Source: Pseudomonas sp. SCB32
GTDB taxonomy: Bacteria > Pseudomonadota > Gammaproteobacteria > Pseudomonadales > Pseudomonadaceae
Assembly (NCBI RefSeq): GCF_009189165.1
Contig: NZ_CP045118.1
Span: 2,666,001-2,730,000, forward strand
DNA length: 64,000 nt
Direction of reading: 5' to 3'
Under the pieces are notes generated by a model. The model was not told the DNA's origin and ran no database searches. It saw only the letters and a list, made by a program, of their open reading frames with translations. The position numbers and the translations under genes were made by a program. Shown piece by piece: positions 3,635 to 29,035 of this stretch (positions within the stretch are counted from its first letter, which is position 1; every line of letters starts with the position of its first letter).

Positions 3635-5011
<1,377 letters not shown>

Positions 5012-24526: not shown

Positions 24527-27244
24527 TTATTGCCAGCCGTAGCGGCGCACGAACCAGCCTTTCATGGCCTGCACCACGCCGACGTAGCCGATCAGGATCG
24601 CCAGCAGGAACGGGAAGTAGGTCCATGGCAGCGCTTGCAGCTTGAAGTAGCCGGCCAGCGGTGACATCGGCAGCAACAGGCCGATGCCCACTATCACCAG
24701 GGTCATGGCCAGCAGCGGCCAGGCGGCGCGGCTCTGCACGAAGGGCAGCCTGCGGGTACGAATCAGGTGCACCACCAGGGTCTGCGAGAGCAGGCCTTCG
24801 ACGAACCAGCCGGACTGGAACAGCGTCTGGTGTTCCGGCGAGTTGGCGGCGAAGACGAACCACATCAGCGCGTAGGTGAGGATGTCGAAGATCGAGCTCA
24901 GCGGGCCGAAGAACAGCATGAAGCGCCCGATGTCATCGGCTTTCCAGCGTTGCGGCTTGGTCAGCTGCTCGGGGTCGACGTTGTCGAAGGGGATGGCGGT
25001 CTGGGACACGTCGTACAGCAGGTTCTGCACCAGCAGGTGCAGCGGCAGCATCGGCAGGAAGGGCAGGAAGGCGCTGGCCACCAGTACGCTGAACACGTTG
25101 CCGAAGTTGGAGCTGGCGGTCATCTTGATGTACTTGAGCATGTTGGCGAAGGTCTTGCGGCCTTCCACCACGCCTTCCTCCAGCACCATCAGGCTCTTCT
25201 CCAGGAGGATGATGTCGGCCGCCTCCTTGGCGATGTCCACCGCCGAGTCCACCGAGATGCCGACGTCGGCGGCGCGCAGGGCCGGCGCATCGTTGATGCC
25301 GTCGCCCATGAAGCCGACCACATGGCCGCGCTGGCGCAGCAGGCGGACGATGCGTTCCTTGTGCGCCGGGGTGAGGCGGGCGAACAGGTTGCACTGCGCG
25401 GCACGCTCGCTCAGCTGGCGGTCGCCGAGGGCGTCGATGTCGCTGCCCAGCAGCATGCCCTCGATGGGCAGGCCGACTTCGCGGCAGACGCGGCGGGTGA
25501 CTCGCTCGTTGTCGCCGGTCAGCACTTTCACCGCTACACCTTGCCCGGCGAGGGCGCGCAGGGCGGCGGCGGTGGTTTCCTTGGGCGGGTCGAGGAAGGC
25601 GATGTAGCCGATCAGCAGCAGGTCGCTTTCATCGGCTACCCGGTACTGCTCGCGCCCGGCCGGCAGTTGCTTCACCGCCACGGCGACGACGCGCAGCCCC
25701 TCGTCATTGAGGCTGGCGGTGTGCGCGCGGATGCGCTTGAGCAGGCGGGCGTCCAGCGCCAGTTCCTGTTCGCCGAGGCGCACGCGGCTGCACACTGCGA
25801 GGATTTCCTCCAGCGCCCCTTTGCAGATCAGCCGGTGGCCGTCGCCGCGCTCGCCGACCACGACCGACATGCGCCGGCGCTGGAAGTCGAAGGGGATTTC
25901 ATCGACCTTGGTGAAGGTCGCACCCAGCTGCGCCTCGCGCTCGGCACCGGCGTGCTCCAGCACGGCCACGTCGAGCAGGTTCTTCAGTCCGGTCTGGTGG
26001 TGGCTGTTCAGCCAGGCGGCGTCGAGCACGCTCTCGCACGGTTGGCCGAGCACGTCGGTGTGGCGCTCCAGCACGATGCGGTCCTGGGTCAGGGTGCCGG
26101 TCTTGTCGGTGCACAGTACGTCCATGGCGCCAAAGTTCTGGATGGCGTCCAGACGCTTGACGATGACTTTCTTGCGCGACAGCACCACCGCACCCTTGGC
26201 GAGGGTGGACGTGACGATCATCGGGAGCATTTCCGGAGTCAGGCCGACGGCGATGGACAGCGCGAACAGCGAAGCCTCCAGCCAGTCGCCCTTGGTGAAG
26301 CCGTTGAGCAGCAGCACCAGCGGCGCCATCACCAGCATGAAGCGGATCAGCAGCCAGCTGACCTTGTTCACGCCCTGCTGGAAGGCGGTGGGTTCGCGGT
26401 CGCTGCTCAGTACCCGCTCGGCAAGGTTGCCGAAGTAGGTGCGCTGGCCGGTGCCGACCACCAGCGCGCGGGCACTGCCGCTGACCACGCTGGTGCCCAT
26501 GAAGCACAGGTTCTCGCGCTCCAGCGGGCTGCCGGCGGCGCCTCGGTGGGGCTCGGCGAATTTCTCCACCGGCAGCGACTCGCCGGTGATGGCCGCCTGG
26601 CTGACGAACAGGTCCTTGGCCGCCAGCACGCGCAGGTCGGCGGGGATCATATCGCCGGCGGCGAGGAGCACCACGTCGCCGGGCACCAGGTCGCGGAAGG
26701 GCACCTCGATGGCGCCGCGCCGGTCGGCTCCGGGCGAGCCAGGCCGCAGCACGCCGGCGGTGTTGCTCACCAATGCCTTGAGGCGCTCGGCGGCGCGATT
26801 GGAGCGCGACTCCTGGACGAAGCGCAGCAGCGTGGAAATCAGCACCATGCTGCCGATCACCGTGGCCGCCTTGACGTCATCGGTGAGCCAGGACACCAGT
26901 GCTAGCAGGCTCAACAGCAGGTTGAACGGGTTGCGGTAGCACCACCACAGGTGCAGCAGCGGCGAGACTGGTTTCTCCTGGTCCACCAGGTTGGCGCCGA
27001 CCCGCTCGCGCAGTGCCTCGACGCTGGCGGCGTCGAGACCTTCGGGGTGACTCTGGAAGTGCCGGTAGAGGCTCTCCGTGTCCAGTTCGGCGGCGCAAGC
27101 CAACTGGCGTACGAAGTCGGGTGGCAGGCTGCCGCGGGCGCTGCCGTTGCGCAGCAGTTCGAGTACCGCGTGGCGGCGGAAGTGACGGCTCAGGCCGTGG
27201 TCGAAAAGGGCCAGCAGGCGCCGGCTGAAGTGTTTGAACAGCAT
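24527..27244 (-). CDS. mgtA: Magnesium-transporting P-type ATPase
   Basis: 905 residues, the normal MgtA length; inner-membrane P3B ATPase importing Mg2+ at low external magnesium. Key sites are the dephosphorylation motif TGES (220-223), GLTPEMLP in helix M4 (334-341), the phosphorylated D380 in CTDKTGTLT, KVLTGDNE, and the hinge GDGINDAPALRAADVG. The N-terminal DHGLSRHFRR basic stretch is usual for MgtA. The 201-bp gap upstream, after mgtC, holds a proline-rich leader ORF and alternative hairpins (27306-27403) that look like an mgtL-type Mg2+/proline attenuator. Confidence 0.95.
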   Translation of the reverse strand: MLFKHFSRRLLALFDHGLSRHFRRHAVLELLRNGSARGSLPPDFVRQLACAAELDTESLYRHFQSHPEGLDAASVEALRERVGANLVDQEKPVSPLLHLWWCYRNPFNLLLSLLALVSWLTDDVKAATVIGSMVLISTLLRFVQESRSNRAAERLKALVSNTAGVLRPGSPGADRRGAIEVPFRDLVPGDVVLLAAGDMIPADLRVLAAKDLFVSQAAITGESLPVEKFAEPHRGAAGSPLERENLCFMGTSVVSGSARALVVGTGQRTYFGNLAERVLSSDREPTAFQQGVNKVSWLLIRFMLVMAPLVLLLNGFTKGDWLEASLFALSIAVGLTPEMLPMIVTSTLAKGAVVLSRKKVIVKRLDAIQNFGAMDVLCTDKTGTLTQDRIVLERHTDVLGQPCESVLDAAWLNSHHQTGLKNLLDVAVLEHAGAEREAQLGATFTKVDEIPFDFQRRRMSVVVGERGDGHRLICKGALEEILAVCSRVRLGEQELALDARLLKRIRAHTASLNDEGLRVVAVAVKQLPAGREQYRVADESDLLLIGYIAFLDPPKETTAAALRALAGQGVAVKVLTGDNERVTRRVCREVGLPIEGMLLGSDIDALGDRQLSERAAQCNLFARLTPAHKERIVRLLRQRGHVVGFMGDGINDAPALRAADVGISVDSAVDIAKEAADIILLEKSLMVLEEGVVEGRKTFANMLKYIKMTASSNFGNVFSVLVASAFLPFLPMLPLHLLVQNLLYDVSQTAIPFDNVDPEQLTKPQRWKADDIGRFMLFFGPLSSIFDILTYALMWFVFAANSPEHQTLFQSGWFVEGLLSQTLVVHLIRTRRLPFVQSRAAWPLLAMTLVIVGIGLLLPMSPLAGYFKLQALPWTYFPFLLAILIGYVGVVQAMKGWFVRRYGWQ

Positions 27245-27305
27245 GATGCACTCCTGGGCGGCCGCAGCAGGGCGGCCACCAGAGGGTTTGCGGAGCGCAG
27301 GGACT

Positions 27306-27366
27306 GCGCCGCCGCCGGTCAGGCCGGACGGCGGCGCGAAGAGATCTCGCTAGCTGCCGTCCGGCC
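27306..27366 (-). promoter_or_regulatory. Alternative RNA hairpins between mgtL-like ORF and mgtA
   Basis: Bases 27306-27318 and 27324-27337 can form a strong GC hairpin with a 5-base loop and one bulge. The segment 27322-27332 can instead pair perfectly over 11 bp with 27356-27366, which are codons 13-16 of the leader ORF. The two structures share 27322-27332 and exclude each other. There is no T run after the downstream hairpin, so termination would be Rho-dependent or the hairpin would affect translation. The layout is that of a translation-coupled attenuator. Confidence 0.7.
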
Positions 27367-27403
27367 CGGGTCTGGGTGATGCGGGACTGGGGTCGGGATT
27401 CAT
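27350..27403 (-). CDS. mgtL-like proline-rich leader peptide
   Basis: Seventeen codons: MNPDPSPASPRPGPDGS then TAG. GGAG lies 7 bases before the ATG, ideal spacing. Six of 17 residues are proline, five of them CCC codons. Salmonella mgtL begins MEPDPTP, so the start M-x-P-D-P-x-P is shared. In Salmonella low Mg2+ or low proline destabilises or slows the ribosome on such Asp-Pro runs, and that switches on mgtA. Here the end of the ORF overlaps one arm of the switchable hairpin described at 27306-27366. It lies 42 bp after mgtC and 105 bp before mgtA. Coding status is inferred from the ribosome site, composition and context. Confidence 0.75.
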   Translation of the reverse strand: MNPDPSPASPRPGPDGS

Positions 27404-27445
27404 GGCCGGGCTCCGGGATCTCCTGTTCGGGTTGCTTGGGGCGCG

Positions 27446-28150
27446 TCAGTCGGCGGCCAGGTCGGAGACCTGCCAGCGCACCGAGCTGACGCCTTTTTCC
27501 AGGCTGATGCGGCTGACCAGACGCTCAAGCTGGGAAGTGGCGCTGTGGTCGCCGAGCAGCTCGGCACGGACTTCCAGCTTGGCCGGGTTGGCCTGGTCCT
27601 CGCTGTGCAGCGACTGCAGGCGCAGGCTGGCGCCGTCGAGGCTGTGCAGCATCAGGCTGCGCACCTGGATCTCGTCCTCGGCGCGGCAGACGATCTCCAC
27701 GCCATAGCGCAGCTCGACCTCGCTGGCCGGCAGCACCTCCTGGTGATTCAGCCGTTGGGCGATGTCGCGCAGCAGGATGTTGGCGCAGAGCACGACAAGA
27801 CTGCCGAGGGCGGCCTCCAGCAGCAGGCCCATGCTGCACAGTACGCCGATGGCGGCGGTGCACCACAGCGTGGCCGCGGTGTTCAGGCCGCGTACGTTGA
27901 GGCCGTCGCGCATGATCACGCCGCCACCGAGGAAGCCGATGCCGGAGACCACGTAGGCGGCGATGCGCGAAGCATCGCTGGCGAGGCCGGGAACGCTCTG
28001 GGTCATCAGCACGAACAGGCAGGCGCCGGTGCTGACCAGGGCATTGGTGCGCAGCCCGGTGAGGCGCTGGCGCAGTTGGCGTTCGGCGCCGATCAGGGCG
28101 CCGAGAATGAGTGCTGCGGCAGCGCGCAGCAGGAAGATTTTCCAATCCAT
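27446..28150 (-). CDS. mgtC: MgtC/SapB family membrane protein
   Basis: 234 residues starting MDWKIFLLRAAAALILGALIGAERQLRQR, the typical first helix and ERQ motif of MgtC. Further marks are RTNALVSTGACLFVL and GIGFLGGGVIMRDGLNVRGLNTAATLW, giving four to five helices. The C-terminal 90 residues form the ACT-like soluble domain of MgtC. In Salmonella and P. aeruginosa MgtC is induced by low Mg2+ and dampens F-ATPase activity and acid or Mg2+ stress. The order mgtC, leader ORF, mgtA on one strand suggests shared low-Mg2+ control. Confidence 0.9.
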   Translation of the reverse strand: MDWKIFLLRAAAALILGALIGAERQLRQRLTGLRTNALVSTGACLFVLMTQSVPGLASDASRIAAYVVSGIGFLGGGVIMRDGLNVRGLNTAATLWCTAAIGVLCSMGLLLEAALGSLVVLCANILLRDIAQRLNHQEVLPASEVELRYGVEIVCRAEDEIQVRSLMLHSLDGASLRLQSLHSEDQANPAKLEVRAELLGDHSATSQLERLVSRISLEKGVSSVRWQVSDLAAD

Positions 28151-28690
28151 GATCCACCTCGTTTCCGGCCTGGGGCCGGCAGGGGCGCAGGACGAGGCCC
28201 GCGCGGAATTCGGGGGTGATGGATTGCGCAAGGTCGCACGGCTTCGCCGGCGGCGCTGAAGGTGTTCGCCGCTCGGTGAGGCGGGAGGGGAGAATGGGGA
28301 TGCGTCATCCCGGTCGGGATGCGGATCGCCACTGTCCGCTGTGATCAGCGAGACAGTGGCAGGGATGTACTGCCGGACGTGCTCGCTGTTCAGACCTGTC
28401 GCAATCGACTAGGGCAACTGTCCAAGGCAGGACTCCTGTGTGGGAAAGAAATTGCCGCGCACGGTATGCCGGCAGGTCCGCTTCGTCAAGCCATTTGGCG
28501 TGGCGCCGAATGGCCAAGGATTATCGATTCGCAAGATTAGCGAAGCCTTAAGGCGGGGCGATAAACGGCGCATTCGACCCTTCGTCGCCTTCCGGCTCGC
28601 CCGATGGCTCGCTGCCGCCGTGAACGCCAAAGCGGGGCTTCACTGAAGGAAACAGCCCCCGGGGTTTGATCGGACAGTGAGGAGACCACC
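28151..28690. other. Divergent intergenic region mgtC / cupin
   Basis: 540 bp. On the minus strand a frame from an ATG at 28308 to a stop at 28093 is proline-rich from its start (MTHPHSPLPPHR) and overlaps the mgtC start out of frame. It might be a leader for mgtC but lacks a clear ribosome site. I saw no clear PhoP box. The plus-strand end holds the cupin ribosome site (GTGAGGAGACC before 28691). Confidence 0.35.
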
Positions 28691-29035
28691 ATGAGCGACG
28701 AAGAGACGGCACCCGAGACCAGGGGAGTAACGGTGGAGTTGCTGGCGACGATGGACCTGGGGCTGGAGATCGAGGGCATGGCCGGGCGTCAGTTGCGCAT
28801 GCGCAGGGTAACCATCGAGCCGGGCGGTGTGTTCGGGCCGGTGCACAGCCACATCGACAGGCCCGGTACGGTCTTCATCCTGCAGGGCACCATCACCGAC
28901 CATCGCGATGGCGTGGCCACGGACTATGGGCCGGGCCTGGGCTGGCCGGAGGACCGGAACACCACGCACTGGCTGGAGAATCGGGGCACGGTCGCGGCGG
29001 TGGAGATTTCGGTCGATATCGTCCGGCAGAGGTGA
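28691..29035 (+). CDS. Cupin-domain protein
   Basis: 114 residues, a single beta-barrel cupin. Motif 1 is present as GPVHSHIDRPGTVFILQG, with the two histidines for metal binding; motif 2 is seen around THWLENRGTVAAVEISVD. GGAG precedes the ATG by 7 bases. Function unknown; such proteins can be small dioxygenases, isomerases or sensors. It converges on the isochorismatase-like gene 66 bp away, so they are not an operon. Confidence 0.75.
   Translation: MSDEETAPETRGVTVELLATMDLGLEIEGMAGRQLRMRRVTIEPGGVFGPVHSHIDRPGTVFILQGTITDHRDGVATDYGPGLGWPEDRNTTHWLENRGTVAAVEISVDIVRQR

Follow-up and report, generated by a model that had tools for sequence, protein, structure and literature searches.

The window analysed here, a stretch of 64,000 nucleotides from Pseudomonas sp. 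SCB32, carries on its minus strand mgtC and, behind it, mgtA, which encodes a Mg2+-importing P-type ATPase. The two genes are separated by a gap of 201 nt, and inside this gap lies a short open reading frame (ORF) preceded by a ribosome site:

27446..28150, minus strand: mgtC (Pfam MgtC and MgtC_SapB_C)
27404..27417, minus strand: ribosome-binding region of the leader ORF, CCCGGAGCCCGGCC, with GGAG 7 nt 5' of the ATG
27350..27403, minus strand: leader ORF MNPDPSPASPRPGPDGS, 17 codons and TAG, ATG start
24527..27244, minus strand: mgtA, Mg2+-importing P-type ATPase (TIGR01524, 1358 bits)

A first-pass annotation had reported a 17-codon ORF with a ribosome site between mgtC and mgtA; its coordinates and letters proved right, and all features lie on the minus strand. 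The start of the peptide had further been likened to that of Salmonella MgtL. Enteric MgtL (Salmonella, E. coli) is likewise encoded by a short leader ORF, and the mgtA behind it belongs to the same protein family. This likeness holds for the short ORF with a ribosome site in the mgtA leader and for Pro3-Asp4-Pro5 near the N-terminus, which is present in the window and in a relative, G086 (see below), as in the enteric controls (MDPDP or MEPDP). It does not extend to residue 2, which is Asn in both the window and G086 instead of the acidic residue of E/D-P-D-P, nor to the later codons, which are unlike those of the enteric ORFs compared. In E. coli MgtL, altering Glu2 and Asp4 together is reported to abolish the effect, and EPDP is named as the destabilising motif (PMC11282234).

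Rarity and conservation of the Pro-Asp-Pro start

Among the 663 ATG ORFs of 6–40 residues on both strands of the window, P[DE]P within the first 8 residues occurs once, in the leader ORF itself. The same test finds 16 of 9514 ORFs in 81 background loci, two of them with a ribosome site, and just two ORFs pass when P[DE]PxP is required, neither with a ribosome site; these loci are DNA around mgtA genes, mostly coding, and are an imperfect control for an intergenic gap.

At the DNA level, 298 genomes of the family hold 10 instances of ATGRAYCCNGAYCCNNNNCC, a pattern for M-[DN]-P-D-P-x-P; two of them lie directly 5' of mgtA, namely in the window and in G086. Seven of the other eight loci are free of MgtA and MgtC to a distance of 1500 nt, and the remaining one, in G020, lies by its coordinates far from the mgtA and mgtC of that genome. 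A looser pattern has matches in 26 of 369 genomes of the class. Across 38 pattern loci examined from the family and class scans, MgtA or MgtC was found only at the window's own locus and that of G086; the downstream frames of six other pattern loci, inspected by eye, hold nothing recognisably related to Mg2+.

When 129 distinct sequences upstream of mgtA were scanned, an ATG ORF with P[DE]P near its start and a ribosome site was found in seven, of which five are enteric and the others are those of the window and G086. A further three carry such an ATG ORF without a ribosome site (one enteric, two betaproteobacteria), four further candidates have a TTG start, and upstream of most other mgtA genes examined the D-P ORF is absent. 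As a positive control, the scan recovers D-P leaders in six of nine enteric loci (three Serratia, two Rahnella and one Rouxiella); no ATG D-P motif was recovered from the three Yersinia mgtA loci. The betaproteobacterial D-P ORFs 5' of mgtA (MPDPEHPPPA in Pigmentiphaga, MPTDPDPHQPPPE in Propionivibrio) were rejected for want of a ribosome site.

Orthologues were sought in the genus (25 genomes), the family sample (298), the genera of G086 and G072 (13 and 18 genomes), the class sample (369), the best 80 of 581 relatives among named genome contigs, and plasmids (40 listed of 100 records). Clade membership was taken from a tree of 36 chosen rows, in which six members of the window's clade were recognised. 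In this tree the window mgtA is grouped, at 100/100 support, with that of G072 and those of four genomes from g6, another genus of the family; the enteric mgtA genes form a separate clade. The mgtA of G002, cut by the start of its contig, was considered as a further member and rejected because it falls with the ordinary genus copy. The window genome itself has two mgtA copies, the second of which (L002) is of the kind usual in the genus and has no D-P ORF upstream. In two genomes of the genus, the regions upstream of mgtA are identical to named loci of Pseudomonas pseudonitroreducens and P. delhiensis, which suggests that the genus is Pseudomonas in the strict sense.

The most informative relative is G086, of genus g6, where MNPDPSPLLSAR lies 127 nt upstream of mgtA with a ribosome site. 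The MgtA proteins of the window and G086 are only 72–73% identical. The first 21 nt of the leader ORF agree at 18 of 21 positions, and all three changes are synonymous; the flanks agree at chance level (12/40 before, 5/21 and 10/38 after). Because the changes are synonymous only and the flanks are unrelated, selection has preserved the first seven codons, that is the start of the peptide, and little else between the two genomes. This conservation also makes a chance origin very improbable: the region is GC-rich, and the window holds five ORFs of 10–30 codons with at least 35% Pro, MNPDPSPASPRPGPDGS (6/17) among them, but the motif is rare and its conservation with G086 is selective.

The composition of the peptide raises another reading, that the leader is a proline-rich attenuator and responds to the supply of proline or the activity of EF-P instead of Mg2+. 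Six of the 17 codons encode proline (positions 3, 5, 7, 10, 12 and 14), and factors of the EF-P family are reported to help translation of XPX in MgtL (PMC11611912). G086, however, keeps N-P-D-P-S-P only and not the later prolines, and the target gene encodes a Mg2+ pump, which leaves proline sensing rather unlikely.

Beyond G086 the leader is poorly kept. MNPDPSP is present in two of the six clade members, the window and G086. G029 and G079 have diverged ORFs without the D-P motif (MRLAPCPSSTAR and MRPDSSSSSIAR, respectively), the leader of G068 has lost its start codon, and G072, with the same gene order and 78% (mgtA) and 86% (mgtC) identity, has a gap of 70 nt without a leader ORF. The comparison of the gap across relatives that the first-pass annotation had proposed as a check is thus divided: the D-P codons are retained in G086, but the ORF is diverged, startless or absent in the other four clade members.

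The leader accompanies mgtA and not the pairing of mgtC and mgtA, since G086 has leader and mgtA with no mgtC match at the examined locus, and G023, which has the closest mgtC found (97%), has no mgtA behind it. The leader would thus move with mgtA and, in the window, would have come to sit behind mgtC, probably on one transcript. An earlier suggestion that the internal leader could uncouple mgtC from mgtA is weakened, as the leader of G086 stands without an mgtC match and mgtC has a leader of its own (see below); uncoupling may be a consequence of where the leader is placed.

Two separate observations were made by eye on mgtA upstream regions. About 80–95 nt 5' of the G086 leader ORF, at L112, stands TTAAGCCAGTCTTAA, which might be a regulated promoter. 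L034 (about 3793–3876) and L113 have leader-like ORFs 5' of mgtA, MRFINASQRSRRLFLLRPPAIPALTPL and MRTIAIPLRRQRHRPALPASPRSFH, which look alike.

Predicted RNA structures and proposed control of mgtA

The end of the leader ORF and the DNA behind it can form competing stems:

27356..27366, minus strand: arm 1, GGCCGGACGGC, codons 13–16 of the leader ORF
27322..27332, minus strand: arm 2, GCCGTCCGGCC, partner of arm 1 or of arm 3
27306..27337, minus strand: competing hairpin, formed by arm 3 and arm 2; 13 bp and a single bulge, -28.0 kcal/mol, not followed by a T run
27257..27280, minus strand: third hairpin, ending directly 5' of the mgtA ribosome site CAGGAG

Arm 1 (27366-27356) and arm 2 (27332-27322) are perfect complements over 11 bp, as had been claimed for codons 13–16, and the rival hairpin said to use arm 2 was also found (27337-27306). 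With the leader pairing, the stretch 27368-27320 is predicted at -36.6 kcal/mol, against -28.0 for the hairpin. Perfect stems of 11 or more bp arose in 37 of 3000 dinucleotide shuffles, and in none of the 3000 could the 3' arm of such a stem also form a rival hairpin with at least 90% of its strength; the 90% criterion was chosen after the structure had been seen, and a stricter definition of a switch (contiguous shared arm, no bulge) missed even the real sequence.

When the window RNA is folded with a ribosome at codons 3–5, the leader-arm pairing is predicted, and with a ribosome at the leader stop, the downstream hairpin. The proposed translation-dependent choice between hairpins is consequently reproduced by folding in the window, but its proposed output, that the hairpin turns mgtA off, found less backing. 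A scan of 27150-28700 detected no terminator-like or sigma-70-like site, and intrinsic termination was rejected as the OFF step for lack of a terminator-like site.

Masking of the mgtA ribosome site, by which the leader would govern translation of mgtA and not its transcription, did not take its place. The site is predicted to pair with 27299-27292 in the window, and with other letters in G029 and G079; against this, its predicted pairing in the window is nearly independent of ribosome position (0.76 without a ribosome, 0.81 with one at the stop, 0.76 at codons 3–5). Masking is therefore not supported as the output of the switch, and we regard control at this step as improbable.

How far do the relatives share the predicted switch? 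Of five sequences folded, only the window and G079 switch between a ribosome at codons 3–5 and one at the stop. In G029 the leader-arm pairing is predicted for ribosome-free RNA only, and the RNAs of G086 and G068 favour the downstream hairpin in every ribosome state. Motif and switch are not conserved jointly, G086 having the motif without the switch and G079 the switch without the motif; the window alone combines the two.

Such a pattern invites a reading in which the conserved entity is a structured leader RNA, with hairpins for processing, stability or pausing, and the ORF is incidental or decaying. In its favour, the downstream hairpin and a hairpin 5' of the mgtA ribosome site, at the position of the third hairpin, are present in all four g6 clade genomes, three of these four have lost the D-P ORF, and the fold of the 201-nt gap is more stable than those of shuffled sequences (z -2.85). 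What speaks against it is the comparison of the window with G086, in which conservation is confined, within the stretches compared, to the first seven codons and the changes are synonymous only. We consider this reading less likely than a regulatory ORF, though the most serious of its competitors.

The reading that we prefer, with a probability of about 55%, is that MNPDPSPASPRPGPDGS regulates mgtA as an MgtL-like leader peptide, with a hairpin switch set by the ribosome. In ample Mg2+, ribosomes would complete the leader ORF and cover arm 1, the hairpin 27337-27306 would form, and transcription would end before mgtA. Rho is the most likely agent of this step because no intrinsic terminator was found; the stretch 5' of the stems, 27445-27369, is C-rich (36 C, 17 G), which we suggest would suit Rho. 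In low Mg2+, or with little charged proline tRNA, ribosomes would pause or fall off at Pro-Asp-Pro, leaving arm 1 free to pair with arm 2, and mgtA would be transcribed.

This scheme resembles the enteric one in that alternative RNA structures are tied to translation, by prediction in the case of the window. Two studies of the enteric system describe a Rho site that stays open when mgtL is translated in full and is closed when ribosomes are lost at EPDP in low Mg2+ (PMC11282234, PMC11552253). Rho is thus reported for enteric MgtL, as the window is without a detected intrinsic terminator. The last step differs between enteric species, since Rho-dependent termination of E. coli mgtA is reported as undetected in PMC11552253. 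The same source describes CorL, a leader ORF in a switchable RNA of a Rho-controlled Mg2+ transporter (PMC11552253); CorL belongs to another gene, enteric corA.

Further differences concern the scaffold and its setting. The window leader stands behind mgtC, and enteric mgtA falls in a separate clade. The leader RNA of enteric mgtA is the Rfam family named Mg_sensor; no Rfam family matches the window at gathering, and at E up to 10 the search returns two microRNA rows far below gathering scores. We would not file the window leader under MgtL, since it departs from MgtL in residue 2 and in its RNA family and may not share its descent. Judged from its sequence, it is better called an MgtL-like, translated-looking regulatory leader peptide of mgtA, on its own RNA scaffold and outside the enterics, and it is probably functional and a real switch.

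If this is true, Mg2+ sensing by ribosome failure at Pro-Asp-Pro is not confined to enterics but recurs in pseudomonads on another RNA scaffold, and the sensing element (seven codons) is separable from the readout, which could be any switchable RNA. Among the titles listed in literature searches on mgtA, mgtC and mgtL leaders, none describes the window leader, which does not establish its absence from print.

A second leader before mgtC

A second leader, whose ORF is unrelated to that of mgtA, precedes mgtC:

28440-28328, minus strand: mgtC leader, whole
28390..28425, minus strand: second leader ORF, M-DSCPSRLRQV-TGA, TTG start
28328..28388, minus strand: two mutually exclusive covarying hairpins, 28388-28382 with 28352-28346 and 28360-28346 with 28341-28328

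A comparable ORF is readable in 29 of 30 mgtC loci examined, with a TTG start and once a GTG start, and its peptide reads mostly M-D-S/T-C/S-P-S/G-R-L-R-Q. Salmonella mgtCBR also has leader ORFs, MgtM and MgtP, which likewise stand 5' of mgtC; the peptide in the window is different, and the likeness noted here is one of position.

Across 29 aligned sequences, the share of cells with a standard pair is 97.1% for the first hairpin and 91.6% for the second. Both sides have changed in 15 and 12 cells, against shuffle means of 4.5 and 4.8, and none of 500 shuffles reached either value. The excess is weaker for pairs changed on both sides (value reached in 24 and 141 of 500 shuffles) and weak or absent for further pair types (143 and 487 of 500). 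Because the window sequence was the source of the structure, the sliding control is biased in favour of that structure.

No Rfam match was found for the mgtC leader in the window and six related loci. A covariance model gives the window leader 159.9 bits, the window sequence having been part of the model. In a search of 23 chosen sources, the model also matches 5' of mgtA in two Chitinibacteraceae (L022:3604-3763 and L074:3698-3856; E 2.7e-5 and 6e-5), and a Sulfuriferula MAG has a weak match there (E 0.007). Among seven mgtA loci of other pseudomonads, four reach E 0.08–0.53; the other three and the divergent mgtC locus L173 are not among the matches listed in the same search. The mgtC leader emerges as a broader and better conserved element than the mgtA leader, and one without an Rfam match.

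In the operon as a whole, two leader switches of unrelated kinds are probably present. A fuller picture, which we put forward tentatively and at somewhat less than even odds, is of one Mg2+ operon with two ribosome-read leaders in series: the Cys/Arg leader (MDSCPSRLRQV) 5' of mgtC would come from an undescribed family also found 5' of mgtA in certain betaproteobacteria and, perhaps, in other pseudomonads, and the MgtL-like D-P leader 5' of mgtA would have arisen or persisted outside the enterics, so that each gene would have its own translation-based Mg2+ sensor. For the P. aeruginosa orthologue of mgtC, PA4635, induction by low Mg2+ is reported (PMC4469704).

The window genome also holds a degenerate second mgtC leader, L217 (G000:C1:3845897-3846027; 47.5 bits), with no readable start codon. 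Its flanks match those of mgtC in two genomes of the genus, at L147 (84% over 1240 bases before, 86% over 1163 after) and likewise at L151, and the DNA after it is matched by nine loci in all. Because both flanks match mgtC flanks elsewhere in the genus, mgtC was probably lost at this relic site, with the window's mgtC-mgtA unit standing at another.

Some minor observations touch the mgtC leader. At 28552-28518 on the minus strand, 5' of it, CTTAAGGCTTCGCTAATC is followed by GATAAT, where the sigma-70 scan found nothing; we take the two to be a possible PhoP/PmrA-type box and promoter. In other pseudomonads, a GTG ORF beginning VGTCSSD lies about 300–420 nt 5' of the MgtA match in 41 loci (for example L024:3650-3819), out of 43 found with a loose search pattern. 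The start of the peptide suggests that the VGTCSSD ORFs may belong to the same family as the mgtC leader. A similar ORF with an ATG start, MDTCSSN..., is present in the Nitrosomonadales MAG L040.
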